Counted from the first letter of the stretch, positions 4,794 through 22,572 are shown. The stretch: DNA of 51,854 nt from Syntrophaceae bacterium (GCA_013388645.1 JACAEV010000174.1:1-51854); one strand, 5' to 3'. Made by a program: numbers and translations. The notes: generated from the sequence alone by a model not told the origin.

Positions 4794-6395
4794 ATGGATG
4801 AGGGAAAAAAGACAAAAGGGCTACTCCTAATGGAGTTAAAAGCTTTGCAGAACCGCTTAGCCGAGTTTGAGGCGGTTGAAGGAGAGCACAGGAGATTGGA
4901 GCAGGAACTGGAAAATCGTACACGAGAGCTTGAGGAACGTGTTAAGGAACTGGATTGCCTTTACACCATTTCTCGCCTTTTTGAAGAGAGAGAGATTCCA
5001 TTAAGCGAAGTATTTCAGAAGACGGTTGACATTATTCGCCTCTCCTTACAGTGTTCCGAGAACAGTTGCGTACGAATCATTTTTGAAGGTCAAGCAACCG
5101 AAACAAAAAACTTCCTTGAATCTCCTTCGAAACTTGATTGCGACATCATTGTCCGTGGCAACCGATTGGGCTCTTTGGAGATTTTTTGCCTCGATGATAA
5201 ACCGGAAAGCCACAGAGAGCATTTTCTGAAGGGGGAAAAACAATTGATCACCGCTATTAGCGAAGTGATCGGAAGGATTATCGAGCAAAAACAGACAGAG
5301 AAGGCTTTCCTGGAGAGCGAGAAGAGGTTTCGCTGCCTGGTGGAGAATTCACCCACTGGTATTTTTATCATCCAAGATGGGCAGATCATTTATGAGAACC
5401 CAGAGGAAAAAAAATTATCCGGGCCTTTAGCCCAATTGTTTCGTCACGGAAATTTGGAAAATATCCATCCCGATGATTTCGAAAGGGTTAAAGAAGGCCT
5501 TGAGAAAATAGTGTCAAGAGAAGTTGAATCCCTGGATATGGAATTCAGGTATTATACCAGGGGAAAAGAAAGCGCCAATCCCGAAATGAAATGGGTCTAT
5601 TGCAGGGCGAGTTTGATAGAATATTTTGGGAAAGAAGCAATACTGGTTAACAAATTAGATGTTACTCGTGTGAAAGAATTGGAACATCTTCTGATGATCG
5701 AGGATAAGATGTCCTCCCTGGGACGGGTGGCTTCAGGCATTGCCCATGAAATAAGAAGCCCCCTTTCTGGTATCAATATCTATTTGAACAATTTGGAGAA
5801 GATCTTCGAGAGGGCGGAAAGCCGGGAGAAAGTAAAGGAGATACTAAGACAGCTCCAATCCGCTTCGAGTAAGATTGAGTCGGTGATCAAGCGTGTCATG
5901 GACTTTTCCAGACCCAGTGAACCAAAATTTATACTTACAGAGATCAACCAACCCGTAGAAGAGGCGATTAATCTTTCTTCGGTTACCTTGAGAAAGAGCG
6001 GAATTGCATTGAGTAAGTCCCTGGCTGAAGATTTGCTACCGTGTCATATTGATCCCCATCTAATCGGACAGGTGATTTTAAATCTTATTATCAATGCGGC
6101 GGAGGCCATGAAGAATATGGAGGGAACCAAACGAATAGAGGTAACCTCTTCCATGCAGGGTAACCGTATCGTTCTGAGCGTTTCAGATTCGGGACCTGGC
6201 GTACCTTTCCATCTAAGAAAGAAGATCTTTGATCCTTTCTTCACGACCAAGGATGGCAGTACTGGAATAGGTCTAAACCTGTGTGAGAGAATCATCACAG
6301 ATCATGGTGGATCTTTGATTGTATTGAGCAGTAAATGGGGGGGCGCAGAATTTAGGGTTGAAATTCCAGTGGAAAGAGAAAGAAAAAAGGAATGA
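4794..6395 (+). CDS. Sensor histidine kinase (coiled coil, GAF-like, PAS, HisKA, HATPase)
   Basis: A 533-aa soluble kinase with no membrane helix. Order: coiled coil (residues about 10-55), GAF-like region (55-170), PAS domain (about 178-300, LVENSPTGIFIIQDG), HisKA with the phosphorylated His318 in GIAHEIRSPLSG, then HATPase with NLIINAAEAM (N box), SDSGPGVP (G1) and GIGLNLCERI (G2). The H box has Arg-Ser where Arg-Asn is usual. It would sense a cytoplasmic signal and phosphorylate the NtrC-type regulator, whose start overlaps its stop (ATGA at 6392). The start has only a weak ribosome site. It is the best candidate sensor for the three sigma-54 promoters nearby. Confidence 0.9.
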   Translation: MDEGKKTKGLLLMELKALQNRLAEFEAVEGEHRRLEQELENRTRELEERVKELDCLYTISRLFEEREIPLSEVFQKTVDIIRLSLQCSENSCVRIIFEGQATETKNFLESPSKLDCDIIVRGNRLGSLEIFCLDDKPESHREHFLKGEKQLITAISEVIGRIIEQKQTEKAFLESEKRFRCLVENSPTGIFIIQDGQIIYENPEEKKLSGPLAQLFRHGNLENIHPDDFERVKEGLEKIVSREVESLDMEFRYYTRGKESANPEMKWVYCRASLIEYFGKEAILVNKLDVTRVKELEHLLMIEDKMSSLGRVASGIAHEIRSPLSGINIYLNNLEKIFERAESREKVKEILRQLQSASSKIESVIKRVMDFSRPSEPKFILTEINQPVEEAINLSSVTLRKSGIALSKSLAEDLLPCHIDPHLIGQVILNLIINAAEAMKNMEGTKRIEVTSSMQGNRIVLSVSDSGPGVPFHLRKKIFDPFFTTKDGSTGIGLNLCERIITDHGGSLIVLSSKWGGAEFRVEIPVERERKKE

Positions 6396-7774
6396 TTTCA
6401 TACTCCATATATGTCATTGACGATGAAGATACCATCAGAGAAGGGATCACCATGGCTCTCGAGGCAGATTACAAGATTAAGACCTTCTCCACAGCTGAGA
6501 AAGCAATTGGTACAATAGAGGAGAATCCTCCGGACCTAATTTTACTTGACATTGGACTTCCGGGTATGAGTGGAATTGAAGCTCTTCGCAAAATTAGGAA
6601 CTTGCATCCCGATGTCCTGGTCATCATGGTTACTGCTTACGAGGACATTGGTACTGTGATCTCTGCCATGAAGCTTGGGGCCTGCGATTATATAGTAAAA
6701 CCAATTCACATGGAAGGTCTCGAGGTAACTATTCGCAATGCCCTTGAGAGAATTCGGCTGAGAAAAGAAGTCCAGATCCTTCAGGAAAAGTATCTCAAGG
6801 AGAACCTCCCTTGCTTTATTGGTGAAAGCAATGAAATTCAAGATATGATGGGGTTTGTTGGGATGGTTGCTAAGAGCCCTGACACCCCGATCCTAATCCT
6901 TGGCGAGACAGGCACGGGAAAGGAATTGATTGCCAGCGCCATCCATTACCGAAGCCCCAATTTTCAAGGTCCCTTCATTACCGTAAACTGTGCTGCCATC
7001 CCGAAGGACCTAATCGAAAGTGAGCTCTTTGGATATGGAAAAGGGGCTTTTAGCGGAGCAAGCACCTTGGGCAAAAAAGGGTTGATAGAGGAGGCGGCAC
7101 ATGGAACTCTGTTTCTGGATGAGGTGGGCGATTTGAGTCTCGAAGCTCAAGCAAAACTACTCCGATTTCTCGAAGCAGGTGAATTTTATAGAGTAGGTGA
7201 AACAAAGAAGATACATATCCAAACCAGAGTGATCTCCGCCACCAATAAAAACTTAGATGGCTTGATAGAAAAAGGCCAATTTAGAAAAGACCTCTATTTC
7301 CGTTTAGGAGTGATCAAGGTACAGGTCCCATCTTTAAATGACCGGCGTGACGATATTATTCCACTTGCCAAGCACTTCTTAATGGAATTTAATAAGAAAT
7401 TTGGTAAAAATTTCACTGCTATTTCTCCCCAGGCGGAGGGAACTTTGGTGGCGTATAAATGGATCGGGAACGTTCGTGAATTAAAAAACCTCATTGAGAG
7501 AGCGGTTTTGACCGGTAAGGGACCAGATCTGACAGTTAAGGACCTTGGAATAGAGGATGTGAGTAAGAATGGTATGTCTATAAGCCGCGAAGATGGTTTT
7601 TCCCCCATTCCTCCAACAGGTATCAACCTCCCTTCGATCCAAGAATCTTTAGAGAAGTTTTATATCCAAGAGGCCCTTAGAATAGCCGGAGGGAACGAAA
7701 GCAAGGCGGCAATGCTCCTTAACCTTAATCACCACACCTTTCGCTACCGCAAAAGAAAGTTACAGATTGAATAG
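6392..7774 (+). CDS. Sigma-54-dependent NtrC-family response regulator
   Basis: A 460-aa activator. The REC domain (residues 5-120) has phospho-acceptor Asp53 (LLLDIGLPGMSG). The AAA+ domain (about 140-370) has Walker A GETGTGKE, the sigma-54 contact loop as GAFSGA instead of GAFTGA, Walker B GTLFLDEVGD, and the R-finger region. The C-terminal Fis-type helix-turn-helix (about 415-460) contains GGNESKAAMLLNLNHHTFRYR. It binds DNA upstream of sigma-54 promoters and remodels the closed complex with ATP. It is co-translated with the kinase. Three sigma-54 promoter modules lie at 8355-8496, 15453-15594 and 16519-16660, which makes it their likely activator by proximity, although binding is not shown. 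Confidence 0.93.
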   Translation: MISYSIYVIDDEDTIREGITMALEADYKIKTFSTAEKAIGTIEENPPDLILLDIGLPGMSGIEALRKIRNLHPDVLVIMVTAYEDIGTVISAMKLGACDYIVKPIHMEGLEVTIRNALERIRLRKEVQILQEKYLKENLPCFIGESNEIQDMMGFVGMVAKSPDTPILILGETGTGKELIASAIHYRSPNFQGPFITVNCAAIPKDLIESELFGYGKGAFSGASTLGKKGLIEEAAHGTLFLDEVGDLSLEAQAKLLRFLEAGEFYRVGETKKIHIQTRVISATNKNLDGLIEKGQFRKDLYFRLGVIKVQVPSLNDRRDDIIPLAKHFLMEFNKKFGKNFTAISPQAEGTLVAYKWIGNVRELKNLIERAVLTGKGPDLTVKDLGIEDVSKNGMSISREDGFSPIPPTGINLPSIQESLEKFYIQEALRIAGGNESKAAMLLNLNHHTFRYRKRKLQIE

Positions 7775-8229: not shown

Positions 8230-8354
8230 CTCTCGTGATTTACCATCTATAAAGATAAAAATCAAATTTCACTACATTTCTCAAAATCTCTCCCAATTTT
8301 CCATTCATGCGACTATAGACAGAAACATGGACATTGTTTTTATAGGGCCCTTGA

Positions 8355-8496
8355 TTTCTAAATTTTACGAAAAGATAATTCGAATTTTTTCTAAATTTGA
8401 GGGAACAGGAAGTCATGTTTTGAAGAATCAGCAATCCTAATTATTTAAAATTATTTGATTTATCAGAATCTCCATTTGTTGGCATTTCATTTGCAC
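8355..8496 (+). promoter_or_regulatory. Sigma-54 promoter module A with upstream inverted repeat, driving mgtE
   Basis: The inverted-repeat enhancer core is at about 8356-8394 (TTCTAAATTTTACGAAA, AGATA, ATTCGAATTTTTTCTAA), centred near 8375. The -24/-12 promoter is TTGGCATTTCATTTGCAC (8479-8496), with GG at 8481-8482 and GC at 8493-8494, exactly 10 bases apart. Start would be near 8506, about 54 bases before the mgtE ATG. Enhancer-to-GG distance is about 106 bp, the same as in modules B and C, and all three are 142 bp long without gaps. This module occupies the gene-free stretch 8230-8559; I see nothing else there. Confidence 0.82.
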
Positions 8497-8559: not shown

Positions 8560-9912
8560 ATGATGTTTCATCGGTTGATTAACCCGGAGATACAGTCGCT
8601 GATCGAACAGAAAAGATGGACCGCCCTGAAAGAGGTTCTCCAGGCGATCCCCGTTCCGGATTTGGCAGATCTGTTGCTGAACCTTGACAAGAAGGAACGG
8701 AGTATCCTGTTCCGGCTGTTACCCAAGCCGTTATCCTCCGAGGTTTTCTCTTATTTAGATTCGGGCCATAAAGATTCACTGCTGAAAGAGATGACTAATG
8801 GGGAAGCCCATCATCTCCTTGCTGATCTGAGCCCGGATGATAGAACCCAATTCTTTGAAGAGCTACCCGGGCAGGCCACCCAGAGGTTGCTCAATCTCCT
8901 GAGCCCGGAAGATCGAAAGGAAACACTGATACTCCTTGGCTATCCAGAGGAGAGTGTGGGTAGGCTAATGACTCCGGACTATGTGGCCATACAACCCGAA
9001 TGGACGATTGAACAGGCGCTCGAACATATACGGAAGAAGGGGAAGGATAGTGAAACGATCAATGTGATTTATGTGGTCGATTCCTCATGGAGATTGGTTG
9101 ACGACCTTGAACTTCGTCGGTTTATCATCGCCAATCCATCGGATACAGTGGAGCAGATCATGGATCACTCTTTTGTCAGCATTGCGGCATACGATGACCG
9201 CGAAAAGGCCGTCCAGTTGATCCAGCACTACGATCTCGATGCCCTTCCGGTTGTCGATTCAGAGGGTATTCTCGTCGGCATCGTGACGGTTGACGATGTT
9301 ATGGATGTGGCTCAGGAGGAGGCAACGGAGGATTTTCAGAAGGTTGCGGCAGTGGTTCCGCTGAAAACGAGCTACAGCGAATCGAGCCTCTGGACACTTT
9401 ACCGGAAAAGGATTGGATGGCTGATCGCGCTGGTTTTAGTGAACCTTGCTTCATCAGGAGTGATTGCCGTTTATGAAGAGGTGCTCGTCTCTGCAATCGC
9501 TCTGGTATTTTTTATTCCACTGCTCATTGACAGTGGCGGCAATACCGGAGCTCAATCGGCCACCCTGATGGTCCGTGCGATTGCCACAGGCGATGTCCAA
9601 TTGGGGCAATGGATGTGGGCCGTGGGAAGAGAAATGATCTTAGGGACACTTTTGGGTTTAACGGTAGGCCTTGCGACATGGCTACTCGGCTTATTCAGGG
9701 GTGGGTTTGAGATCGGAATCGTGGTAGGTTTAGCAATGTTATCCATCGTGGTTGTTGCAAACCTGATAGGCGTAGTTCTACCTTTTCTGTTGACCAGGCT
9801 TCGGTTGGACCCTGCAGTGGCAAGCAGCCCATTAATTACGTCCATTGCCGATGTCGTCGGTTTGATGATCTATTTTTCTATCGCCACCCGGCTTCTTGGT
9901 GTGCCAGGATAA
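8560..9912 (+). CDS. mgtE: Magnesium transporter MgtE
   Basis: A 450-aa Mg2+ channel of normal family length. The N-terminal helical N domain (residues about 5-130) senses Mg2+. Two CBS motifs follow (about 135-255, GRLMTPDYVAI and ALPVVDSEGILVGIVTVDDV), then five membrane helices (about 285-450). Pore motifs are clear: PLLIDSGGNTGAQSATL and PLITSIADVVGLMIYFS. GGGAG lies four bases before ATG 8560 (a second ATG follows at 8563). It is preceded by sigma-54 module A, so it appears to be induced through an NtrC-type activator, which is unusual for mgtE, more often controlled by a Mg2+ riboswitch. Confidence 0.94.
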   Translation: MMFHRLINPEIQSLIEQKRWTALKEVLQAIPVPDLADLLLNLDKKERSILFRLLPKPLSSEVFSYLDSGHKDSLLKEMTNGEAHHLLADLSPDDRTQFFEELPGQATQRLLNLLSPEDRKETLILLGYPEESVGRLMTPDYVAIQPEWTIEQALEHIRKKGKDSETINVIYVVDSSWRLVDDLELRRFIIANPSDTVEQIMDHSFVSIAAYDDREKAVQLIQHYDLDALPVVDSEGILVGIVTVDDVMDVAQEEATEDFQKVAAVVPLKTSYSESSLWTLYRKRIGWLIALVLVNLASSGVIAVYEEVLVSAIALVFFIPLLIDSGGNTGAQSATLMVRAIATGDVQLGQWMWAVGREMILGTLLGLTVGLATWLLGLFRGGFEIGIVVGLAMLSIVVVANLIGVVLPFLLTRLRLDPAVASSPLITSIADVVGLMIYFSIATRLLGVPG

Positions 9913-10258: not shown

Positions 10259-11152
10259 ATGCGCAGAGTTATTTACTTTTTATTTACAAACATCGCTATT
10301 CTAATCGTCTTAAGTACGGCGATGAGGGTTTTGGGTGTAGAACCCTATCTTAATGCCCATGGACTGAACTACCAGTCACTGCTCATCTTTGCTCTCGTGT
10401 TCGGCATGGGCGGGTCCTTTATCAGTCTTGCCTTATCCAAATGGACGGCAAAGAGGATTTCCGGCGCGCAGGTTATAAAAAAGCCTGCAAATGAGACAGA
10501 AGGGTGGCTTGTAAGAACCGTGTCCGAACTGGCGGCGGAGGCAAAGATCGGAATGCCGGAGGTCGCCATTTTCCCTTCGGATGACCCGAACGCCTTTGCA
10601 ACAGGGATGAGCAGAAATAAGTCCCTGGTAGCTGTCTCATCAGGACTTCTCAGAAGGATGGACAGGGAAAAGGTGAAGGCTGTTCTTGCCCATGAGGTGG
10701 CCCATGCGGCCAACGGCGATATGATTACCCTGGCCCTGATTCAGGGTGTGGTGAACACCTTTGTGCTGTTTCTTTCCCGTGTTATCGGGCATACCGTGGA
10801 CAGGGTAGTCTTTAAGAATGAAAGAGGACACGGCCCTGCTTTCTGGGTAACAACGATTGTTGCCGAGATGGTTCTTGCTATTTTGGCCTCGATCATCGTC
10901 TTTTACTTCTCAAGAAAGCGTGAATATAGGGCAGACAGCGGAGCTTCGGCGCTGGTTGGCAAAAAGCCAATGATAGGAGCGCTTGAGGCATTAAAGGCAT
11001 CGATACGCCAGCCCCATCTCCCCGATAAACTTGCAGCTTTTGGTATCTCCGGCACGAAACGAAGAGGGCTGGCCGCGCTGTTTGCGACCCATCCCGACCT
11101 TGATGACCGAATCGAGGCGCTAAAGAGGTCAGACTATCCCGATTATAAATAA
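10259..11152 (+). CDS. htpX: Membrane metalloprotease HtpX
   Basis: A 297-aa inner-membrane zinc protease of family M48 that degrades damaged membrane proteins and overlaps in role with FtsH. Two N-terminal membrane helices (about residues 5-25 and 38-58) precede the catalytic motif LAHEVAHAANGD (His145, Glu146, His149), then two more helices and the third zinc ligand region SRKREYRADSGA. It ends with ATHPDLDDRIEALK, the normal C-terminal signature, so it is intact. Start ATG 10259 follows GGAGG. A decayed second copy of the C-terminal half lies at 24314-24638. With NfeD and HflKC it forms a membrane quality-control set. Confidence 0.94.
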   Translation: MRRVIYFLFTNIAILIVLSTAMRVLGVEPYLNAHGLNYQSLLIFALVFGMGGSFISLALSKWTAKRISGAQVIKKPANETEGWLVRTVSELAAEAKIGMPEVAIFPSDDPNAFATGMSRNKSLVAVSSGLLRRMDREKVKAVLAHEVAHAANGDMITLALIQGVVNTFVLFLSRVIGHTVDRVVFKNERGHGPAFWVTTIVAEMVLAILASIIVFYFSRKREYRADSGASALVGKKPMIGALEALKASIRQPHLPDKLAAFGISGTKRRGLAALFATHPDLDDRIEALKRSDYPDYK

Positions 11153-11301: not shown

Positions 11302-13944
11302 ATGTTCTGGCACCAAAAAACGGTTGAAGAGGTTATCCGAGACCTGAGAACGTCTTTGAAAGGTTTATCTCCCGAAAAGGCACAGAAACGATTTCGGGAA
11401 TATGGCCCGAATGAACTGAAGGAGAAAAAGAAGAGGACCCCCTTCACGATGTTCCTTGATCAGTTCAAGGACTTCATGATCCTCGTCCTTATTGCTGCTG
11501 CAATCATCTCCGGGTTGATCGGAGACCCTGAAGACACGATTGCGATCATCATCATCGTAGTGCTCAATGCGGTGATCGGCTTCGTTCAGGAATACCGGGC
11601 TGAAAAGGCTATGGCGACGCTTAAGAAAATGGCCGCCCACACCGCCCTTGTGTTGAGAAATGGCGAGCCTACAAATATTCCGGCGTCGGAGCTCGTTCCG
11701 GGCGATATCGTGTTGCTCGAAGCTGGAAAGGTTGTGCCGGCTGATATAAGACTGACGGAGGCCGTTCAACTAAAAGCTGAAGAGGCGGCCCTGACCGGTG
11801 AGTCCGTGCCCATAGAAAAGCACGCCATGACACTGCCTGATGCAGACCTGCCTATTGGCGACCGAAAGAACATGGTCTACAAAGGGACTGCCCTATCTTA
11901 CGGCAGAGGCGCCGGCATTGTCGTAGCTACCGGTATGAATACAGAACTGGGGAAAATTGCCGCCATGCTTCAGGAGGAAGAAGAAGTTAAAACTCCTCTT
12001 CAAAAAAGACTCACTGCATTCGGTAAAAATCTTGCCTTTGCCGTGCTTGCTATATGCGTCCTGGTCTTCGCCATAGGGGTCTTCAGGGGCGAATCCCCTC
12101 TGTTGATGCTCCTGACCGCCATATCCCTGGCAGTCGCAGCGATCCCCGAGGCCCTTCCGGCAGTCATCACCATCTCCCTTGCGCTGGGGGCCAAGAAGCT
12201 TGTTAGGCAGAACGCCCTCATAAGGAAACTCCCAGCGGTAGAAACCCTCGGATCGGTCACCTACATCTGCTCAGACAAGACGGGTACCCTCACCCTGAAC
12301 AGGATGACGGTGGAAGAGGTCTATCTCGATAAGGAAGTCGTGAACAGTAATGAGGGGGGAGTTAGGAGTAAGAAAGGGAGTGTTGCACACCGGACACCGC
12401 ACTCCGAATTTTTCACCGCCCTGTCATTAAGTAACGATGCCCAGGAAGACGCCTCCGGCGATCTCATCGGCGACCCTACAGAGACCGCTCTCTATGTCTT
12501 TGCTAAAGAGAATGGGTTTAATAAGAGTGAATTGGGAAAAGTGCATCCACGTGTGGCAGAGATTACCTTTGATTCTGAGAGAAAATGCATGACGACATTT
12601 CATAAAATCAATCCCCACTCTCTGGTCTCCTTCACCAAGGGAGCGATGGAAGTTCTTCTCGAAAAGGCAGACTACCAGTTAACCTCTGAAGGGATTAAAC
12701 CGGTTGATCGCGAAGACCTCTTACAGAAAAATGAGAAGATGGCTGGGAATGGGCTGAGGGTCATCGGCATTGCCATGAGGAGGTGGAATGCCCTCCCCGA
12801 GGATATATCGCCTGAGAATGTTGAAAAGGGGCTCACCCTTTTAGGTCTGGTTGGTATAATGGACCCTCCGAGGGAAGAGGTTAAGGAGGCTGTTTCATTA
12901 TGTAAAACAGCAGGCATAGTGCCTGTGATGATAACAGGCGACCATCCAGTCACGGCAATGGCCATCGCCAGAAGACTCGACATGATTGAGGATGGATCGA
13001 AGGCGGTCATCACCGGAAGGGAACTTGAAAGGCTGTCCTTGGAAGAGTTTGAAGAAAAAGTTGATCATCTCAGGGTCTATGCGAGAGTAGCGCCTGAGCA
13101 GAAACTTAAAATAATCAAAGCCCTTCAGGACAGAGGCCAGTTTGTGGCCATGACAGGAGACGGTGTAAATGACGCCCCTGCATTAAAGAGAGCGGACATC
13201 GGCGTTGCCATGGGGATCACCGGGACCGATGTCTCAAAAGAGGCAGCCCACATGATCCTTCTGGACGACAATTTCGCGACCATTGTGAAGGCTGTGAAAG
13301 AAGGCAGGAGAATCTTTGACAATATCCGCAAGTTTATCAAATATACCATGACAAGCAATTCGGGCGAAATATGGACCATATTCCTTGCCCCGTTTTTCGG
13401 CTTACCGATCCCCCTTCTGCCGATCCATATACTCTGGATCAATCTTATTACTGACGGCCTGCCGGGACTTGCCCTTGCTGCCGAGCCGGCGGAAAAGGAG
13501 GTAATGAGCAGGCCGCCAAGACATCCGAAGGAGAGTATATTTACACATGGTCTGGGCACACATATAATATGGGTAGGACTTCTCATGGGATTTGTGTCAC
13601 TATTTACTCAGGCATGGTCCATCAAGACAGGCCATACCCACTGGCAGACAATGGTCTTTACTGTTTTGTGTTTGAGCCAGATGGGACATGTGCTTGCAAT
13701 AAGGTCAGAAAGGGAATCCCTCTTCAGCCAGGGGTTGTTTTCGAACAAGCCCCTTCTGGGCGCCTTTGCCTTGACCTTTGCCCTGCAGATGGCAACCATT
13801 TACGTGCCGTTTTTAAATCCGATTTTCAAGACAGAACCTTTGACCTTCGCCGAATTGATGTTTACACTGGCTTTAGCATCCGTAGTGTTTATCGCCGTGG
13901 AGACCGAAAAGCTGCTGTTGAGAAGACGGAAAATCACTTCTTAA
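11302..13944 (+). CDS. Cation-transporting P-type ATPase, Ca2+ (type IIA/PMCA-like)
   Basis: An 880-aa ATP-driven cation pump in the inner membrane. Visible parts: N-terminal cation_ATPase_N domain ([19 protein letters not shown]), TGES actuator loop (165-168), M4 ion-binding motif [20 protein letters not shown], phosphorylated Asp325 in CSDKTGTLT, hinge motif TGDGVNDAP (618-626), and M6 [16 protein letters not shown], followed by four more helices (about ten in all). The M4/M6 pattern points to Ca2+ or a similar divalent ion, not K+ or heavy metal. The ribosome site GGAGGAG precedes ATG 11302. A short repetitive-looking insert (residues about 350-370) interrupts the start of the nucleotide domain. 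It lies 150 bp after htpX and may be co-transcribed. Confidence 0.93.
12348..12411 (+). repeat. In-frame repeat-like insert within the P-type ATPase gene
   Basis: Between [11 protein letters not shown] and [12 protein letters not shown] the protein has a stretch ([20 protein letters not shown]) without family character. The DNA is G-rich and then C-rich, with GGAGTG (12377-12382) and CACTCC (12400-12405) inverted. It looks like a small palindromic element that inserted and kept the frame open. It sits in a surface region where family members vary in length, so natural variation is the alternative. Confidence 0.4.
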
Positions 13945-15452: not shown

Positions 15453-15594
15453 TTTAGAAATTTTGCGAAAAGATATTTCGAAATTTTTCTAATTTTGTTG
15501 GACTAAGAATCTTTATCCGGAAGAAGGAGGAAGGCTAATTGTATGAAATTATTTGGTTTATCCTATTCTTCTTTTGTTGGCATCTTCTTTGCTC
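15453..15594 (+). promoter_or_regulatory. Sigma-54 promoter module B with upstream inverted repeat, before acuB-like gene
   Basis: The enhancer inverted repeat is TTAGAAATTTTGCGAAA (15454-15470), AGATA, then TTTCGAAATTTTTCTAA (15476-15492); the arms match at 14 of 17 positions. The promoter TTGGCATCTTCTTTGCTC has GG at 15579-15580 and GC at 15591-15592, 10 bases apart. Transcription would start near 15604, leaving about 210 untranslated bases before ATG 15816 in which I see no other element. By hand count it differs from module C at about 19 of 142 aligned bases without gaps. Confidence 0.85.
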
Positions 15595-15815
15595 AATTAA
15601 AGAAGTGGCTGAAAACGAATTTGTCAATTCAAAAGTCCGGCCTGCATCATGTTTGATCCCTTTGTGTTGATTTTAATGCAGTATCATAACACATCGGAAG
15701 TTAGATAGGTATATTTGGGGTAGTAAAAATTGCCAATTTTTAGAGGAATTCTTAATCTGACACAATAACCAAATGTGGTAAAAAATTCACAAACTGAGTG
15801 AAAGGAGAGGATGTT

Positions 15816-16493
15816 ATGAAGATCCACTACAAAGGATTCATGAGGGAAAGGATAACAAGAAATCCGATTACCATCAATCCGGAGGCCAATTTTTTTGAAG
15901 CTCGTGCTCTTATCCATGACAAGGGGGTTCGCCACCTTCCTGTGATTGACAAGAACAATCATCTCGTTGGAATCATAACAGACCGGGATATTCGGGAAGC
16001 CGCTCCCTCTGCTGCAACCCTGCTTAGCTTCCAGGAGCTCAATTATCTCCTGCATAAACTCAAAGTATCGGCCATCATGACTCCCAAGGAAAAATTGATC
16101 ACAATCACTACAGACACATTGATCGAAGAGGCGGTCAAACTGATGCGGGACCACAACATCGGATGTCTCCCTGTAATGGAAGGGGAGAAATTATATGGAT
16201 TATTTGCAGAGTCGGATGCCCTAGATCTCTTAGTGGACATCTTTGGTTTAAATCAAAAAGGAACCCGCCTCACGGTTGCCTTTGAAGATAAACCCGGCAC
16301 CATGCTGGGGATCCTTGAGGTCTTTAAGAAACATAATATCAATATCATCAGCATTGTCACCCCCTCTTTTATGGTAGAAAGGAAAAGAATTGCTGCTATC
16401 CGAATTCAGACAGAAAATTACCAGGAATCGGTTAAGGATTTAGAGAAGGCTGGTTACGAGGTCCTCTCCGTAGGGAAATGGCCTTCCTTATAA
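15816..16493 (+). CDS. AcuB-like protein with two CBS domains and an ACT domain
   Basis: A 225-aa cytoplasmic protein. Two CBS domains (residues about 1-60 and 75-135: GVRHLPVIDKNNHLVGIITDRDI and NIGCLPVMEGEKLYGLFAESD) should bind adenine nucleotides. The C-terminal ACT domain (about 148-220, VAFEDKPGTMLGILEVFKKHNINI) usually binds amino acids. This architecture is that of AcuB, whose role is poorly known. The frame extends up to a GTG at 15798, but GGAGAGG inside those codons lies five bases before ATG 15816, so I use that start. It is flanked by sigma-54 modules B (upstream) and C (downstream). Confidence 0.85.
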   Translation: MKIHYKGFMRERITRNPITINPEANFFEARALIHDKGVRHLPVIDKNNHLVGIITDRDIREAAPSAATLLSFQELNYLLHKLKVSAIMTPKEKLITITTDTLIEEAVKLMRDHNIGCLPVMEGEKLYGLFAESDALDLLVDIFGLNQKGTRLTVAFEDKPGTMLGILEVFKKHNINIISIVTPSFMVERKRIAAIRIQTENYQESVKDLEKAGYEVLSVGKWPSL

Positions 16494-16518: not shown

Positions 16519-16660
16519 TTTAGAAATTTTGCGAAAAGATATTTCGAATTTTTTCTATTTTTGATGCCCTGAGAATCTTTATCTGGAAAAAGCGGGAATG
16601 CTAAGCATTTGATATTATTTGGTTTGTCCGATTCTTCTTTTGTTGGCATCTACTTTGCTC
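16519..16660 (+). promoter_or_regulatory. Sigma-54 promoter module C with upstream inverted repeat, driving the REC-HflKC operon
   Basis: The enhancer inverted repeat is TTAGAAATTTTGCGAAA (16520-16536), AGATA, then TTTCGAATTTTTTCTAT (16542-16558). The promoter TTGGCATCTACTTTGCTC has GG at 16645-16646 and GC at 16657-16658. The start would be near 16670, about 56 bases before ATG 16726. Thirteen plus-strand genes follow closely up to a hairpin at 22537-22562, so this promoter likely drives an operon of nearly 6 kb. Confidence 0.85.
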
Positions 16661-16725: not shown

Positions 16726-17136
16726 ATGTGCTTTTTCAGCAAACTAAGAGAATTGAAAATATTACTCATAGATGATGACAAGTGGATAAGAGATTCCTTA
16801 AGTCTGTTCTTTGAAAGTGAGGGAATCTTCTTGGTGGCATGTGAGACTGCCGAAGAAGGGTTGGAAACACTAAGGGATCAAACCTATGACATCATCATCG
16901 TCGATTATAAGTTACCTGGCATGGATGGCCTGGAGTTTCTCAAGAGAGTTAAGGAGTCCCACCCAGGTTCCATGAAGGTACTCCTTACGGCGTATAAAGA
17001 GGATAAAGTCGTTGCTGAGACAAACAGAATCGGAGTTGATGATTTTATTGAAAAGCCTTTCACAGCAAAAACGATTGAAGAGTCTCTCTCAAGGCTGATT
17101 GAAAAGCAGGAACAAAAAATCAGTGGCCTTTTGTAA
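16726..17136 (+). CDS. Single-domain response regulator (REC)
   Basis: A 136-aa receiver domain with no output domain. The acidic pocket is LLIDDDKW (residues about 14-21), the phospho-acceptor is Asp60 (IIIVDYKLPGMDG), with LLTAYKED and Lys in EKPFTA completing the active site. It should accept a phosphate from a histidine kinase and act through protein contact. It is the first gene after sigma-54 module C. AAGAAG upstream of ATG 16726 is a fair ribosome site. The two kinases in the window (4794 and 24906) are possible donors. Confidence 0.88.
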   Translation: MCFFSKLRELKILLIDDDKWIRDSLSLFFESEGIFLVACETAEEGLETLRDQTYDIIIVDYKLPGMDGLEFLKRVKESHPGSMKVLLTAYKEDKVVAETNRIGVDDFIEKPFTAKTIEESLSRLIEKQEQKISGLL

Positions 17137-17206
17137 AACACACTTCTCATGGAGTGAATAAGGATGAGGATATAGCACTTGCCCTATTGCATCTGCACTG
17201 CATGAG

Positions 17207-17731
17207 ATGGAAAAGGCCAGGGATAGGGAAATGGTCTATAAAATATTAATTATCGCTGATGCATCAGAGGATGCTTTGGAATCGGTTCTTGAGGCTTTTC
17301 AAACGATTCGAAAAAGTCAACCGAAAATAATGGGATTCTTTATCTCCTGCCTATCTGAATCCTTTTTAAAGCATTTGGGTCCAAATATCTTAAGCATTTT
17401 GCTGAAACAGGAAAAAGAAACGCTTGAAGCCGCTGAAGATTATTTTAGCCACATGGATATTCCTCATCATTTTGAGATTATCAATGCCCCCCACTTGCAA
17501 GGAATCTTTGAAGTAGTAAAGTTCGGAGATTTCAACCTAATCATTCTTCAAGGTGAATTCCTTAAGATTTGTAGGGAAGGAAAAGAATTCATGGGATCGA
17601 GTTTACATACGATAACACCAAAATGCCCTATTCTGATCATAAATGAATCAGAGAAACCCTCTTCGACACTTTATTTTTTAAATTCGGAAACATTATCCAA
17701 GGAAGGGACGAATTCAACATGGAAGGATTAA
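17207..17731 (+). CDS. UspA-like protein
   Basis: A 174-aa protein with a Rossmann-like pattern: MVYKILIIADASEDALESVLEAF at the start, FNLIILQGEF in the middle and PILIINESEKPS near the end, resembling universal stress proteins. The ATP-binding G-2x-G-9x-G(S/T) motif is only partly visible (MGSSLHTITPKCPILII), so nucleotide binding is uncertain. The frame opens at ATG 17207, but ATG 17231 (MVYKIL) fits the family start better; neither has a strong ribosome site. It follows the REC gene and precedes hflK in the same operon. Confidence 0.6.
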   Translation: MEKARDREMVYKILIIADASEDALESVLEAFQTIRKSQPKIMGFFISCLSESFLKHLGPNILSILLKQEKETLEAAEDYFSHMDIPHHFEIINAPHLQGIFEVVKFGDFNLIILQGEFLKICREGKEFMGSSLHTITPKCPILIINESEKPSSTLYFLNSETLSKEGTNSTWKD

Positions 17732-17779
17732 GGATTGTTAAGAAAGAAAAAATAGAACCGAGAGCTTTGTGGAGGAATT

Positions 17780-18823
17780 ATGCCATGGAGAGAGGATGAT
17801 TTTGGAGGAAGTGGGCAAGGCTATAGCGGTCCTTCAATGAATGAAGTTGTATTGAAGATTCAGCAGAAAATGGCGCAATGGGGAGGGAAGAGAATTTTAT
17901 TAATCCTCATAGCCATCGTAATTGGAATCTGGTTAGCATCGGGGATCTATATTGTTGGGCCAGGCGAAATGGGAGTGATTCGCCAGTTTGGAAAGATGGT
18001 AGATCAAACATCCCCAGGACTGAGATACCGTCTTCCCTGGCCCATTCAGACCCATGATGTGGTGCATCTGGCCAGAATCAGAAGGGCTGAGATCGGCTTG
18101 AGAACAGATTCATATACAGGAAAAGCCAGACCTGAGCCCAAAGAGGCACTGATGCTCACTGGAGACGAAAACATCGTAGATGCCCAACTCTTTATTCAAT
18201 ACTTGGTAAAAGACCCTTCACAGTTTCTCTTCCGGGTGAGGGAATCCGAATTGGCCTTAAAGACCTCCGCCGAGGTAGCCCTTCGAAGTGTAGTAGGCCG
18301 GAATACCATTGACTACACGATGACCGAAGGAAGGGTGGTTGTCCAGGATGAGATTAAAAAATACCTTCAATCTCTTTTGGACGAATACCAAACAGGATTG
18401 ATGGTGACCGAGGCCAGGCTCCTGGTGGTGGACCCACCCGAAGAGGTGAAGGATGCGTTTCATGATGTCGTCAGAGCATGGGAGGATCGAGAGCGCCTGA
18501 TGCGTGAAGCAGAGGGATATCGAGAGGACCTCATTCCCAAAGCCAGAGGAGAAGCTGCCCAGATGGTTCGAAGTGCAGAGGCTTACAAAGAACAACGAGT
18601 CATTCGAGCCCAAGGGGATGCAACGAAATTTCTGGATGTTCTAAAAGCTTATAGGAAAGCGAAAGATGTGACAAGGGAGCGGCTCTATTTAGAGACTTTG
18701 GATAAGATCCTGATAGGGAAAGAAAAATATGTCCTTCCTCCGGAGGGAAAAAATTCTGTTTTGAAGTGGCTTCCGTTGAAGGAAACCATTTCCATTAAAG
18801 AGAAAGAAGGGAAAAAGGAATAA
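17780..18823 (+). CDS. hflK: HflK, SPFH-domain membrane protease modulator
   Basis: A 347-aa protein with a glycine-rich N-terminus (DDFGGSGQGYSGP), one membrane helix (about residues 39-60, ILLILIAIVIGIWLAS), then an SPFH/band-7 domain beginning IYIVGPGEMGVIRQFGKMV and a long C-terminal helix. HflK and HflC form a large cage in the inner membrane around FtsH that controls membrane protein turnover. GGAGG lies four bases before ATG 17780. hflC follows 6 bases after the stop. The protein is of normal length for the family. Confidence 0.93.
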   Translation: MPWREDDFGGSGQGYSGPSMNEVVLKIQQKMAQWGGKRILLILIAIVIGIWLASGIYIVGPGEMGVIRQFGKMVDQTSPGLRYRLPWPIQTHDVVHLARIRRAEIGLRTDSYTGKARPEPKEALMLTGDENIVDAQLFIQYLVKDPSQFLFRVRESELALKTSAEVALRSVVGRNTIDYTMTEGRVVVQDEIKKYLQSLLDEYQTGLMVTEARLLVVDPPEEVKDAFHDVVRAWEDRERLMREAEGYREDLIPKARGEAAQMVRSAEAYKEQRVIRAQGDATKFLDVLKAYRKAKDVTRERLYLETLDKILIGKEKYVLPPEGKNSVLKWLPLKETISIKEKEGKKE

Positions 18824-18829
18824 AGAACC

Positions 18830-19702
18830 ATGGGGGGAGCAAAGAGATTCGTTAGAATCGTTTTGATTTTCATTGGCCTCATTCTTTTATCGAGTGCAAC
18901 GTTCACCATTGATGAAAAAGAACAGGCCATCATCACCCAGTTTGGGAAATATATTCGAACCATTCGAGAACCAGGATTGCATTTTAAGATCCCAATCATT
19001 CAAACCTTACATCTCTTTGAAAAAAGGGTTTTGACTACGGATGCTGTTGCTGTGGAATACATCACTCTCGACAAAAAGAGGGTGGTGGTGGACCATGTCT
19101 CCCGATGGAAAATTGAAGATCCTCTGGAATTCTATCGGAGTGTCAGAACGGAGGCAGGGGCGCTCGCACGGCTGGAAGATATCCTGGTTGCCCGGTTGAG
19201 GCAGGAGATTGCAAAACACACTTTTATTGGATTCATCAGGGAGGAAAGGGAAAAAATCGTCGAAACTGTGGCCAAAGAAGCTCATGAATTGGCAAAACGG
19301 TTTGGCATCAGAATTATCGATGTGCGGATCAAACGGGCTGACCTTCCCAAAGAGGTCCAGGCCAGTGTCTATGCCCGCATGCAGGCAGAACGCCATCGTA
19401 TTGCCAAACGATATAGAGCCGAGGGAGAGCAGCGATCTCGAGAGATCAAGGCCGAAACTGACAAAGAGAAAGAAATTATTCTTGCCAAGGCCTATCAACA
19501 GCAGATGAAACTTTTCGGCGAAGGGGATGGCCGTGCCACAGAGATTTACGCCTCTTCCTATGAGCAGGACATGGAGTTTTACTCTTTTCTCAGGAGGCTC
19601 CAAACGTATGAACAACTTTTTGAGGGAAAGACAACGATTCTCCTTGAATCGGATTCCGAACTTCTCAAATATTTCAGGAATCCCCGGGTACCCAGTAAAT
19701 GA
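18830..19702 (+). CDS. hflC: HflC, SPFH-domain membrane protease modulator
   Basis: A 290-aa partner of HflK. One N-terminal membrane helix (residues about 6-24, IVLIFIGLILLSSATF) is followed by an SPFH domain starting FTIDEKEQAIITQFGKYIR with GLHFKIPIIQ, then the charged helix typical of HflC (YARMQAERHRIAKRYRAEGE) and SYEQDMEFYSFLRRLQTYE, the family's C-terminal signature. It would assemble with HflK in the periplasm-facing cage regulating FtsH. It is the second gene of the hflKC pair, inside the sigma-54 operon. Coupling to HtpX and NfeD nearby fits membrane quality control. Confidence 0.94.
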   Translation: MGGAKRFVRIVLIFIGLILLSSATFTIDEKEQAIITQFGKYIRTIREPGLHFKIPIIQTLHLFEKRVLTTDAVAVEYITLDKKRVVVDHVSRWKIEDPLEFYRSVRTEAGALARLEDILVARLRQEIAKHTFIGFIREEREKIVETVAKEAHELAKRFGIRIIDVRIKRADLPKEVQASVYARMQAERHRIAKRYRAEGEQRSREIKAETDKEKEIILAKAYQQQMKLFGEGDGRATEIYASSYEQDMEFYSFLRRLQTYEQLFEGKTTILLESDSELLKYFRNPRVPSK

Positions 19703-19750
19703 AAACAACCAATATTCCTACTAACCACTAACCAAGAAAGGGGGCAGTGT

Positions 19751-20287
19751 ATGCGTTTCACAAAGATCTTCATATTCTTAATTTTAAGCCTGGCTATTGG
19801 ATTTTTTGGTTGTGCTAAGGAGCAAAAGGTGGAGGTTCCCAAACATGAGCAAATCACTAAAAATTTGGTTCCACCGAAAGCTGAGGTTAAGGGACAGGCT
19901 TTTCTTGTGGAGCTTAGCGATCTTAAGGTCATCATGACAGTAAACATAGCTTCCAAAGAGATCGTCGAGACCCCGAGCCTAAAGGGTAGCATCAAGATCA
20001 CTAATAAATCGAAAGATATCCTAGACATCCAAGCGCTTACCCTCGAGTACTTGGATGAAGCTGGGAAGCCAATTCCTTATAAATCTGAAGAGAAAATAGT
20101 GAAAGTTTATCCGTTTTGGAAGGCTCTTCAGCCTGAAGGCATTGCCGAAGGATCTCTGGACGTCACGATCCCAGCGAACGCTATCAAGGAAAAGCCCCTT
20201 GGAAAGTTAGAAGTCGACATAGTCTACATCCCCTCTCCGCTTAAGCGAGAGATATTGATTCTTCCTGAGAAGATAAAGATTGAATAG
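19751..20287 (+). CDS. Putative lipoprotein with LEA-like/immunoglobulin-like fold
   Basis: A 178-aa protein with a lipoprotein-type signal: MRFTKIFIFLILSLAIGFFGC, Cys21 as the likely lipidated residue. The residue before Gly is Phe, so the lipobox is not ideal. The rest is a beta-rich domain (SLKGSIKITNKSKDILDIQALTLEYLDEAGKPI), similar in style to bacterial domains that follow FxxT-type or LEA patterns; no catalytic residues are evident. It is probably anchored in the periplasm near HflKC, whose large domains face the same compartment. I do not recognise a named family. Confidence 0.6.
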   Translation: MRFTKIFIFLILSLAIGFFGCAKEQKVEVPKHEQITKNLVPPKAEVKGQAFLVELSDLKVIMTVNIASKEIVETPSLKGSIKITNKSKDILDIQALTLEYLDEAGKPIPYKSEEKIVKVYPFWKALQPEGIAEGSLDVTIPANAIKEKPLGKLEVDIVYIPSPLKREILILPEKIKIE

Positions 20288-20340
20288 CCCCCGATATTTA
20301 AGGGCAAGGCAAGCATAGAAGAAAAAGGAAGTGCGGTGAA

Positions 20341-20430
20341 ATGGAGAAAGGTGATGTTTTTATTTGGACCTTAGTTATTGGGTTAGTGATTTTTGCGATA
20401 GCGAGCTTCTTTCTTTATGCCGGACCTTAA
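20341..20430 (+). CDS. 29-residue single-helix membrane protein
   Basis: A short ORF (MEKGDVFIWTLVIGLVIFAI, then ASFFLYAGP) with one clear membrane helix from about residue 7 to 26 and no charged residue inside it. A purine-rich AAGGAAGTGCGGTGAA precedes the ATG. It lies in the lipoprotein-REC gap within the operon. Small membrane proteins like this often regulate membrane proteases or transporters, so a role with HflKC or FtsH is conceivable but not shown. It is too short for coding statistics; conservation is needed. Confidence 0.5.
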   Translation: MEKGDVFIWTLVIGLVIFAIASFFLYAGP

Positions 20431-20499
20431 GGACGAAAAATATATTACCTTCCTATTATGATGCCATCCACTGGTTGATTTGATGGAAATACCAGATTC

Positions 20500-20871
20500 A
20501 TGATGGATGATAAGAACCGAATGTTGATTATTGGAGAGGATGAACAGATGGGGTTTTTGTTGAAAGATTTTTTGCAGAAAGAAGGGGTTGAGGTCGAACA
20601 TGTGAAGAAGTGTACTTATGTTTTCAAAAAATTATTGACAGAGTCTTTTGCACTCATCCTTACTGATATTCGGATGCGTCGCTTTAACGGCTTAGACATC
20701 CTCACAGGACTTAGAAAACTCCAGCCTGAGCCTCCCATTATTGTAATAACTACTGCCTTTGGAGGCGAAGAAGTGCAACATGAGGCACATGAAAAAGGGG
20801 CTACTGCCTATTTAGAGAAGCCGATCCATTTCCCTAAATTAAGAACTTTGATTTATGAAAATGTTTCCTAA
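20500..20871 (+). CDS. Single-domain response regulator (REC), second copy
   Basis: A 123-aa receiver domain: acidic pocket MLIIGEDEQ (residues about 8-16), phospho-acceptor Asp56 (ALILTDIRMRRFNG), Thr switch in VITTAFGGEE, and Lys in LEKPIHF. There is no output domain. The start may be ATG 20500 or the next codon, 20503; the ribosome site is weak. Located between the 29-aa membrane protein gene and the PTS EIIA gene. It differs clearly from the REC protein at 16726, so it is not a recent duplicate. Confidence 0.85.
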   Translation: MMDDKNRMLIIGEDEQMGFLLKDFLQKEGVEVEHVKKCTYVFKKLLTESFALILTDIRMRRFNGLDILTGLRKLQPEPPIIVITTAFGGEEVQHEAHEKGATAYLEKPIHFPKLRTLIYENVS

Positions 20872-20896
20872 GAATAAAAAAGGAGGGGGATAAGCA

Positions 20897-21310
20897 ATGG
20901 TTGGAATCCTTGTTGTTTCTCATGGAGGGTTAGCTGACGCGTTAATCGCATCGGTCCAGTCTCTTGTGGGAAATTTGCAGAGGACAAGAGGAGTCTCAAT
21001 CTGGCCGAAGGAAAAGGAAGAGGAGGTTAAAGATCGGGTTCGAAAAGAAATTGCAGAGGTGGACGATGGGGATGGAGTTGTGATTTTAACGGATATTTTG
21101 GGAGGGACGCCGACGAACCTCAGCCTTTCCTTTCTGGAAAAGGAGAGAGTGGAGGTGGTCACTGGGGTGAATATGCCTATGTTGCTGACCCTTTCGAGTT
21201 ATCAAAAGGGAGGGTCCTTGAGAGAGATCGGCAGATTAGTAAAGAAGTCCGGACGTCGGAGCATTATCTTAGCCAACGAACTTCTAGGATTTAAACGGAG
21301 GAGGAAATGA
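20897..21310 (+). CDS. PTS EIIA component, mannose family, orphan
   Basis: A 137-aa EIIA(Man)-type domain: MVGILVVSHGGLADALI with the phosphorylated His9, and VVILTDILGGTPTNLSLSF, the conserved centre. EIIA(Man) takes phosphate from HPr. No EIIB, EIIC or EIID genes are next to it, so it probably serves regulation, as suggested for the orphan EIIA(Man) proteins of Deltaproteobacteria, instead of sugar uptake. The start follows AGGAGGGG. It overlaps the next gene by four bases. Confidence 0.88.
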   Translation: MVGILVVSHGGLADALIASVQSLVGNLQRTRGVSIWPKEKEEEVKDRVRKEIAEVDDGDGVVILTDILGGTPTNLSLSFLEKERVEVVTGVNMPMLLTLSSYQKGGSLREIGRLVKKSGRRSIILANELLGFKRRRK

Positions 21311-21525
21311 ATGAGATGATATGTCCGTCTTGTGGGAAGATGATTATGAGCATCACAGAGGTGGAGAGGATTCTCAGTAATACTTTCAGCAAAGTCCTGT
21401 TAAGCCGTTGCTTATGCGGAGAGGCTTTTGAAATCCGATCTCCAACGAGAAATCTCTTTGAGATTTCAACCTCATCTGGGAAAAGGTTAAAACAATTCAT
21501 AGACGATGCAGAGGGAACGCCATGA
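21307..21525 (+). CDS. Small zinc-ribbon-like protein
   Basis: A 72-aa protein with cysteines arranged as CPSC (residues 6-9) and CLC (about 35-37), a possible four-cysteine metal site (ICPSCGKMIM ... SRCLCGEAF). Start codon ATG 21307 overlaps the EIIA stop, with GGAGGAGG just ahead, so it is translationally coupled. Its end overlaps the next gene (ATGA). I do not know a function. Adapter proteins of this size often contact regulators, here perhaps EIIA or the following REC-like protein. Confidence 0.6.
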   Translation: MNEMICPSCGKMIMSITEVERILSNTFSKVLLSRCLCGEAFEIRSPTRNLFEISTSSGKRLKQFIDDAEGTP

Positions 21526-21854
21526 AAACAATTCTCTGCATCGATGATTCTGAGAGTCGGTTTCTTCTTCAGGAAGAATTGACAGAGGAAGGGTATCAAG
21601 TGCTCGCCGCAAACAATAATGAAGAAGTGTTATCCAGATGTAGAGATTTTAATCCGGATCTGATCATTATGGAATTGAGGCAGAAGAATGTGAAAGAACA
21701 GTCTTTTGAAACATTAAAATGGTGTCCAAACATACCGTGGATCGGATATTCGACCTTCCCCCAATGTCCGGAGGAATTTCGAAAATGGGTCCAGTTCTAT
21801 TTACCTAAGTCATATAAGATAGACGGATTAAAAGGGCTGATCAAATGTCTCTAA
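21522..21854 (+). CDS. REC-like protein with Glu in place of the phospho-acceptor Asp
   Basis: A 110-aa receiver-like domain. The acidic pocket is normal (ILCIDDSESR, residues 4-13), but the acceptor position reads LIIMELRQ, with Glu51 instead of Asp. A Lys is kept in YLPKSYK. Glu at this site often mimics permanent phosphorylation, so the protein may be locked active or may have a purely structural role. The conserved Thr/Ser region is also altered (WIGYSTF). It overlaps the Zn-protein gene by four bases and so is co-translated with it. Confidence 0.75.
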   Translation: MKTILCIDDSESRFLLQEELTEEGYQVLAANNNEEVLSRCRDFNPDLIIMELRQKNVKEQSFETLKWCPNIPWIGYSTFPQCPEEFRKWVQFYLPKSYKIDGLKGLIKCL

Positions 21855-21901
21855 ATCATCGGTTTGATGAGAATCTGTCAAAACAGAAAGGGGTGGTTCA
21901 T

Positions 21902-21982
21902 ATGACAAAATGGAGGTGGATTTTTATTTCTTTGGTAATGCTGGGAATGTTTGTTTTTGCACTCTTCATCTACTCTGCATAA
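21902..21982 (+). CDS. 26-residue single-helix membrane protein
   Basis: A short ORF (MTKWRWIFISLVMLGMFVFA, then LFIYSA) with a strong ribosome site (AAAGGGGTGG, six bases before ATG). Three positively charged or aromatic residues precede one hydrophobic helix (about 7-25), so the N-terminus should be cytoplasmic. It lies between the REC-like and SAP-like genes in the same operon. This is the better supported of the two small membrane proteins because of its ribosome site. Function is unknown. Confidence 0.6.
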   Translation: MTKWRWIFISLVMLGMFVFALFIYSA

Positions 21983-22025
21983 TTTGCGGTAGTTTGATTA
22001 ATAGTATGAAATGAGGTGGCAGAAA

Positions 22026-22220
22026 ATGAAATTGAATGAAATTAAAGAGAAAGCGAAGGCTTTAAGAATAAAAGTGATGGCGACTGCAAAAAAGTCAGAT
22101 TTGATTCGCCAAATCCAAAAGGCTGAGGGTAATTTTGACTGTTTCGGCAAAGCAATTGATTACTGCGATCAATGGAGTTGTTGTTTCAGAGAAGATTGCC
22201 TGCCCTCACCCAGACTATAA
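22026..22220 (+). CDS. SAP-like small protein with a cysteine-rich tail
   Basis: A 64-aa protein. The first half (MKLNEIKEKAKALRIKV ... KKSDLIRQIQKAEG) resembles SAP or Rho-N helix-extension-helix modules that bind nucleic acid. The second half, FDCFGKAIDYCDQWSCCFRE followed by DC, holds five cysteines and may bind metal or an Fe-S group. The longer frame starts at ATG 22011, but GAGGTGG lies between it and ATG 22026, so I use the latter. Such proteins recur in anaerobic Deltaproteobacteria as far as I recall, without a known role. Confidence 0.6.
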   Translation: MKLNEIKEKAKALRIKVMATAKKSDLIRQIQKAEGNFDCFGKAIDYCDQWSCCFREDCLPSPRL

Positions 22221-22271
22221 AAAGTAAATCATTCGATTTCAGATTTCAGGGGAAAAAGGAGGTGAAAAAGG

Positions 22272-22520
22272 ATGGTTATGAAAAAGTTACTCGCTGGTTT
22301 CTTAGTTTTAGTGGTTTTGGTGGCCTTTAGTCTGCCTACCTTAGCCAAGGAAACAGTTAAGGGAAAGATTGAGGCACTGGACAAAGAAGCGAAAAAAGTC
22401 ACGATTGGCGGAACCGAATATTCGTTGGGTGACGAAGTTTCTCAGGTTGAGGTTAAAGTAGGAGATGAAGTTGAGGCTACCATAGAAAGGGGTGTCGTCA
22501 AAGAATTAAAACAGACTTGA
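22272..22520 (+). CDS. Small exported protein, OB-like (DUF1344-like)
   Basis: An 82-aa protein with a signal peptide (MVMKKLLAGFLVLVVLVAFSL ... PTLA, cut near residue 25) and a short beta-rich mature domain: ETVKGKIEALDKEAKKVTIG, then VEVKVGDEVEATIERGV. It resembles small periplasmic DUF1344-type proteins. Role unknown. GGAGG lies nine bases before ATG 22272; ATG 22278 is an alternative. It is the last gene before the hairpin terminator at 22537, so it closes the sigma-54 operon. Confidence 0.6.
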   Translation: MVMKKLLAGFLVLVVLVAFSLPTLAKETVKGKIEALDKEAKKVTIGGTEYSLGDEVSQVEVKVGDEVEATIERGVVKELKQT

Positions 22521-22536
22521 TTTTAGGCCCATGGAG

Positions 22537-22572
22537 AGAGGGTCCATCAAAGGCCCTTCTCCTCTTTTCCCC
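22537..22572 (+). terminator. Intrinsic terminator at the end of the 13-gene operon
   Basis: GAGAGGGTCC (22537-22546) pairs with GGCCCTTCTC (22553-22562), one mismatch, around a 6-base loop, followed by CTCTTTTCC. It lies 17 bases after the last stop codon. A second weaker stem, CCCC ... GGGG, follows at about 22570-22587. Confidence 0.6.

Follow-up and report, generated by a model that had tools for sequence, protein, structure and literature searches.

The window, the whole 51,854-nucleotide stretch of Syntrophaceae DNA analysed here, comes from a draft assembly of 250 contigs (completeness 95%, contamination about 5%) and carries 13 ORFs at positions 16726-22520, all on the plus strand and spaced by gaps of -10 to +70 nt. 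A strong sigma-54 promoter of the -24/-12 type (TTGGCATCTACTTTGCT, GG-N10-GC; 16643..16659, plus strand), whose score was reached by 0 of 300 shuffled sequences, is located 66 nt upstream of the first ATG, and the last gene is followed by a stable terminator-like hairpin (22533..22564, plus strand, -16 kcal/mol; scan match 22538-22558), terminator-like sites as a class showing no excess over chance here. The arrangement bears out a sequence-only reading of the same DNA, which had claimed a 13-gene sigma-54 operon running in one direction up to a hairpin. With regard to separate promoters within the unit, the three operon-internal stretches examined contain no sigma-54 site, and sigma-70-like sites are rarer than in shuffled sequences (6 versus 10.3). 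The 13 genes would form a single transcription unit under the 16643-16659 promoter, their co-transcription being predicted from this layout.

The identities of HflK and HflC are clear, as the former (17780..18823) matches the TIGR01933 equivalog model with 257.2 bits against a cut-off of 159.4, the latter (18830..19702) is a Pfam Band_7 protein encoded next to it, and both score above the Pfam cut-offs; the window HflK also matches a solved HflK structure. An equivalog-level HflK with an adjacent HflC-type SPFH partner is the combination that marks the FtsH modulator. In E. coli HflKC is established to act through FtsH, and by analogy the pair would have the same role in controlling FtsH in this host. 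Orthologues of HflK in six family members are 78-89% identical, and the HflC orthologues adjoining HflK 86-95%. The next gene encodes a lipoprotein (19751..20287; lipobox recognised by eye; mean pLDDT of the predicted structure 49), which is conserved at 82-84% beside HflKC in four relatives (G002, G009, G010 and G015). Homologues of the lipoprotein also adjoin SPFH slipin genes (L172 1501-2880; L169; G000:C10), which suggests a general SPFH partner.

The phospho-signalling genes of the operon likewise have well-defined members. The receiver-only REC1 (16726..17136; Pfam Response_reg, 88 bits), the receiver REC2 (20500..20871) and EIIA(Man) (20897..21310; Pfam EIIA-man, 83 bits against 21.4) all exceed the Pfam cut-offs, in keeping with their original assignment. 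REC2 retains the acceptor Asp and the Lys; its pocket is diverged in the window, with a changed acidic pair and one inserted residue, and is a full receiver pocket in the relatives. The window copy is also fast-evolving (end branch 1.04 versus a median of 0.25), which suggests that the quartet of REC2, EIIA, Zn protein and REC3 may be diverging or decaying. In EIIA(Man) the Pfam match is accompanied by the phospho-His, which is kept as the aligned His in VSHGGLA, and solved EIIA homologues were matched as well. The host has a second EIIA(Man) copy on contig C135 and a canonical copy on C105, and sequence reading recognised HPr and EI genes in the rpoN-PTS cluster of C105 and HprK and PtsN genes in the genome. 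Since the phospho-His is kept and EI and HPr are present, PEP-dependent phosphorylation of EIIA appears plausible. The putative zinc protein (21307..21525) has four invariant cysteines in a CPxCG...CLCG pattern and no Pfam match above cut-off; a scan of genome contigs found two close loci (PEUO01000069.1 in Deltaproteobacteria CG03 and DCUS01000125.1 in Syntrophaceae UBA2208), the only other match being short and weak. Finally, REC3 (21522..21854), described initially as REC-like with a Glu, indeed has Glu in place of the phospho-acceptor Asp in 4/4 homologues and is therefore at most a pseudo-receiver; its Pfam score, 25.6 bits against 30.2, is below the cut-off.

The remaining ORFs are less securely assigned. 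A moderate-confidence model of the Usp-like protein (17207..17731) best matched Usp folds (best E 3e-3) and one homologue matches Pfam Usp weakly, but the window protein itself has no Pfam Usp match, so that the proposed UspA-like identity survives as a resemblance of fold and not as membership of the universal stress proteins. Usp-like genes adjoin an EIIA(Man) gene in two relatives (G012, L103 8196-10555, with a REC gene; G004, L104 7975-9485), an alternative Usp-EIIA arrangement. Two tiny ORFs of 29 aa (20341..20430) and 26 aa (21902..21982) would each encode a single TM segment and have a plausible SD sequence. The Cys-rich small protein at 22026..22220 resembles SAP/Rho_N domains, as had been suggested, with a Pfam Rho_N match that stays sub-threshold, and the last gene (22272..22520) encodes a small exported protein with a signal peptide recognised by eye and a sub-threshold CusF match. 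Neither REC1 nor the Usp-like, SAP-like, exported or tiny membrane genes were found alongside the block in relatives, which suggests that the 13-gene set may be specific to this genome. Elsewhere in the host genome, purC-like (SAICAR synthetase) genes were recognised twice by sequence reading, at 26015-26935 of the window and at L005 13737-14645.

The operon promoter is one of three that share the same upstream site. The palindrome CGAAAAGATAnTTCGAA, termed UAS1, has three mismatch-free occurrences in the genome, all within the window (8368, 15466 and 16532), and the corresponding copies span 8355..8395 (TTTCTAAATTTTACGAAAAGATAATTCGAATTTTTTCTAAA), 15453..15493 and 16519..16559 on the plus strand. 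In 3/3 cases the distance from the palindrome to the TGGCA of a sigma-54 promoter is 112 bp, the other two promoters preceding mgtE (8479..8495, TTGGCATTTCATTTGCA; score equalled by 0/300 shuffles) and a CBS-ACT gene (15577..15593, TTGGCATCTTCTTTGCT). Looser UAS1-like matches elsewhere in the genome were rejected as targets, as they lack a promoter. The three units thus headed consist of genes for the Mg2+ transporter MgtE (8560..9912), an HtpX-like M48 peptidase (Peptidase_M48; 10259..11152) and a Ca2+-type P-type cation ATPase (11302..13944); a gene for a CBS-CBS-ACT protein (15798..16493); and the HflKC operon, all on the plus strand and the former four assigned by Pfam domains. An NfeD C-terminal domain protein is encoded at 7783-8265 on the minus strand, and a homologue adjoins the Zn-ATPase in G002 (L134 4126-4557). 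HtpX, NfeD, MgtE and the pump had been named as neighbours of the operon and are all identified by their domains. A transposase-like ORF (14186-14860, minus strand; IS1634-type by eye) follows the cation ATPase gene, ahead of the CBS-ACT gene, and may mark a rearrangement.

Upstream of the three units lie genes for a histidine kinase (4794..6395; Pfam HisKA and HATPase_c), the predicted controller of the regulon, and an NtrC-type sigma-54 activator (6392..7774; Pfam REC, AAA+ and HTH_8), both on the plus strand; the activator carries a GAFSGA loop of the GAFTGA type, and a rpoN-like ORF was recognised by sequence reading within the PTS cluster on contig C105. The repetition of UAS1 and promoter at identical spacing beside this pair argues that the three units form a local regulon, and it upholds the earlier proposal of sigma-54 and two-component control. 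Orthologues of the activator (72% in G005; 70% in G052, from another class) are adjoined by those of the kinase (64% and 61%, respectively), and in both genomes a similar AT-rich UAS1-like site with a sigma-54 promoter is found just 3′ of the ntrC orthologue, which supports the window NtrC as the reader of UAS1, and the protein is accordingly predicted to bind this site.

Relatives from this family carry the core HflK-HflC-lipoprotein-REC-EIIA(Man)-Zn-REC(Glu) in complete or incomplete form, usually immediately 5′ of a cluster for a glucosylglycerate-type osmolyte, with gpgS, a phosphatase gene and MscS. The orders found are pgm-HflKC-REC2-EIIA-Zn-gpgS (G001), pgm-(another HflKC)-lipoprotein-REC2-EIIA-Zn-REC3-gpgS (G002), HflKC-REC2-Zn-gpgS (G004), REC2-EIIA-gpgS (G006), HflKC-REC2-gpgS (G008), HflKC-lipoprotein-REC2-gpgS (G009), HflKC-lipoprotein-REC2-REC3-gpgS (G010), REC2-gpgS (G012) and HflC-lipoprotein-REC2-(REC3 trace)-gpgS (G015), and the host itself has paralogues of REC2, EIIA, Zn and REC3 at its osmolyte locus on contig C135, in the order NtrC-(pgm remnant)-REC2-EIIA-Zn-REC3-gpgS. 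REC2 is located upstream of gpgS in 10/11 close loci and HflC in six (G001, G004, G008, G009, G010 and G015), and in G002 a different HflKC pair holds the HflKC position. The downstream cluster encodes GpgS-like, MPGP-type phosphatase and LapA-like proteins, glycosyltransferases and MscS, with matches to glucosyl-3-phosphoglycerate synthase, mannosyl-3-phosphoglycerate phosphatase and an MscS-type channel, and pgm, OtsA/OtsB, TreT or DUF5752 genes lie nearby in some relatives, including G010 and G001. The GpgS match (376 versus 700) is under the NCBIfam equivalog cut-off, so the exact osmolyte is a prediction. HflKC, lipoprotein, EIIA and Zn protein are about 75-95% identical to those of close relatives (one Zn protein 58%), with intact and overlapping frames. 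The conserved linkage expected by the earlier reading is therefore found for HflKC with REC2, EIIA, Zn and REC3, but not for the 13-gene unit as a whole, and the window unit contains neither gpgS nor gpgP and is in itself no glucosylglycerate locus.

The module heads in relatives have strong sigma-54 promoters, mostly with 0-3 of 300 shuffles reaching the score; that of G009, at a contig end, has none. Upstream of these promoters lies a second site, UAS2 (TTGCCACAGnnTGTTTCnTTTnTnCCC), which differs from UAS1. With up to 3 mismatches it occurs 20 times in 23 genomes of the class (reversed control 0), and a promoter follows after 96-101 bp in 17/20 sites, including all 15 with no more than 2 mismatches; no promoter accompanies the 3-mismatch sites in G016, G017 and G002 (C203:3990), which were left out of account. 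Across 395 genomes of the phylum, 12/13 matches with up to 2 mismatches belong to this family, and the thirteenth is found in an outgroup (G140) between an NtrC orthologue (75%) and REC2 (66%). In that genome (L176) what looks like an inserted repeat has moved UAS2 farther away from the likely promoter. UAS2 also heads a DUF5752-TreT and an ATPase-MscS stretch in G001, the Zn-ATPase in G002 and REC2-ATPase in G007; the Zn-ATPase unit of G008 has a sigma-54 promoter without a convincing UAS2.

Building on the operon layout, the promoters, the repeated UAS, the conserved linkage and the paralogy present in the sequence, the locus probably belongs to an osmotic or envelope-stress regulon, in which a second sigma-54 activator took over a duplicated HflKC block, along with Mg2+ and cation transport and HtpX. 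The HflKC operon would be one of three sigma-54 units switched by the adjacent HK/NtrC through UAS1, and the HflK-HflC-lipoprotein-REC2-EIIA-Zn-REC3 core would be a duplicated block whose copy in relatives heads osmolyte genes under the UAS2 activator, the second activator in the host also driving MgtE-mediated Mg2+ import, the cation P-type ATPase and the HtpX protease. When osmotic conditions change or the envelope is stressed, NtrC would be phosphorylated by the kinase and activate the -24/-12 promoters, whereupon HflKC could curb or steer FtsH at the membrane during the reset of ion pools. The small REC, EIIA and Zn proteins may add cytosolic phospho-inputs, with EIIA reading the PEP-dependent PTS chain, and the phosphorelay may act on HflKC itself. 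Both the osmotic signal and the function of the quartet are predicted from gene context. In B. subtilis, osmoadaptation depends critically on the reimport of Mg2+ (PMC8844918), which makes MgtE a sensible partner. The host osmolyte genes lie on a separate contig with UAS2, so the osmotic signal attaches to the window copy by association only. Also counting against the model are HflKC-MgtE of G005, which shows no UAS1 promoter, and the fast evolution of the window REC2. A speculative and rather doubtful extension is that REC2, EIIA(Man), Zn protein and REC3 form a dedicated adaptor conveying PTS phosphorylation state and two-component input to HflKC-FtsH and osmolyte synthesis; if true, this would be a new type of control over membrane proteolysis in osmotic stress.

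The earlier reading as a stress or membrane quality-control system under phosphorelay control is retained as to its sigma-54 and two-component control and its linkage, but the osmotic or turgor theme is better supported, as the block of the relatives is part of a locus for osmolyte synthesis that has a sigma-54 activator of its own. A general envelope or membrane-protein quality-control regulon akin to Zra, Cpx or Psp is unlikely. In this reading damaged membrane proteins would be dealt with by HflKC, HtpX and the lipoprotein, and shared envelope-stress induction would account for the osmolyte link. HtpX, HflKC, the lipoprotein and the protein with the NfeD domain are indeed typical parts of such systems, and the slipin-associated lipoprotein homologues fit this reading too, but the genes most often conserved next to the block in relatives are those for osmolyte synthesis and MscS rather than for chaperones or proteases. 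Cation pumps do recur beside block genes, as the proposed partnership would have it, with homologues adjoining Zn, REC2 or HflKC genes in four relatives (G002, G005, G007 and G008), although the ATPases compared share just 41-45% identity and are possibly not orthologues. MgtE and the Ca-type ATPase occupy one of the three units and HflKC-MgtE-cation ATPase are adjacent in G005, where gpgS is missing and the MgtE homologue is 79% identical. A divalent-cation homeostasis regulon, in which the HK/NtrC pair would sense Mg2+ or Ca2+ and act mainly through MgtE and the pump, with transporter turnover by HflKC-FtsH, is nevertheless improbable, as it leaves the gpgS/trehalose linkage of the block unexplained and the NtrC orthologues elsewhere adjoin different targets, namely GAF/oxidoreductase genes in G005 and REC genes in G052. 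Chance co-location of a duplicated and now decaying HflKC block behind a copied promoter, with no system-level role, would suit the fast-evolving REC2, the extra small ORFs, the nearby transposase-like fragment (14186-14860) and the patchy gene content in relatives, but is very improbable given the good conservation and intact frames of HflKC, lipoprotein, EIIA and Zn protein and the recurrence of similar partners at separate loci.

To our knowledge, what triggers HflKC physiologically is poorly defined for most bacteria. The conserved grouping, under sigma-54 promoters, of HflKC with mechanosensitive channels, cation transport and the synthesis of osmolytes points to an osmotic shift as a concrete condition for HflKC-FtsH regulation. 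The combination of HflKC with phospho-signalling genes in this uncultivated deltaproteobacterial lineage, and its place at the head of osmoprotectant genes in relatives, suggests that membrane quality control is tied to osmotic adaptation in a manner so far undescribed. The analysis further supplies two activator-site motifs, UAS1 and UAS2, with fixed promoter spacing, and a single gene block that was apparently rewired between two sigma-54 activators within one family. The literature covered, which included few subscription papers, yielded nothing relevant on HflK with sigma-54 and EIIA or on HflC with glucosylglycerate.

Among known systems, E. coli HflKC, the FtsH modulator, is alike in the equivalog-level HflK match and the hflK-hflC order; in E. 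coli the genes sit in the hfq-hflX operon, whereas here they are under sigma-54 with REC and EIIA proteins. The ZraSR and Cpx envelope-stress systems also place membrane quality-control genes under two-component control, with targets and sites that appear to differ from those of the present locus. Unlike the block in relatives, which precedes gpgS-phosphatase-MscS as in glucosylglycerate (gpgS/gpgP) loci, the window copy lacks biosynthetic genes. Permease-less regulatory PTS with EIIA(Man) are known, for example, from Brucella melitensis (PMC2937029), with which the host shares EIIA(Man), HPr, EI, HprK and PtsN genes by sequence reading, but in the host a second EIIA gene is part of a stress operon, with receiver genes on either side. 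Finally, the sigma-54 regulons of D. vulgaris (PMC4641369), in the main text of which HflK, osmo-, CBS and universal stress terms are absent, share with this locus the local HK-NtrC pairs with neighbouring -24/-12 targets.
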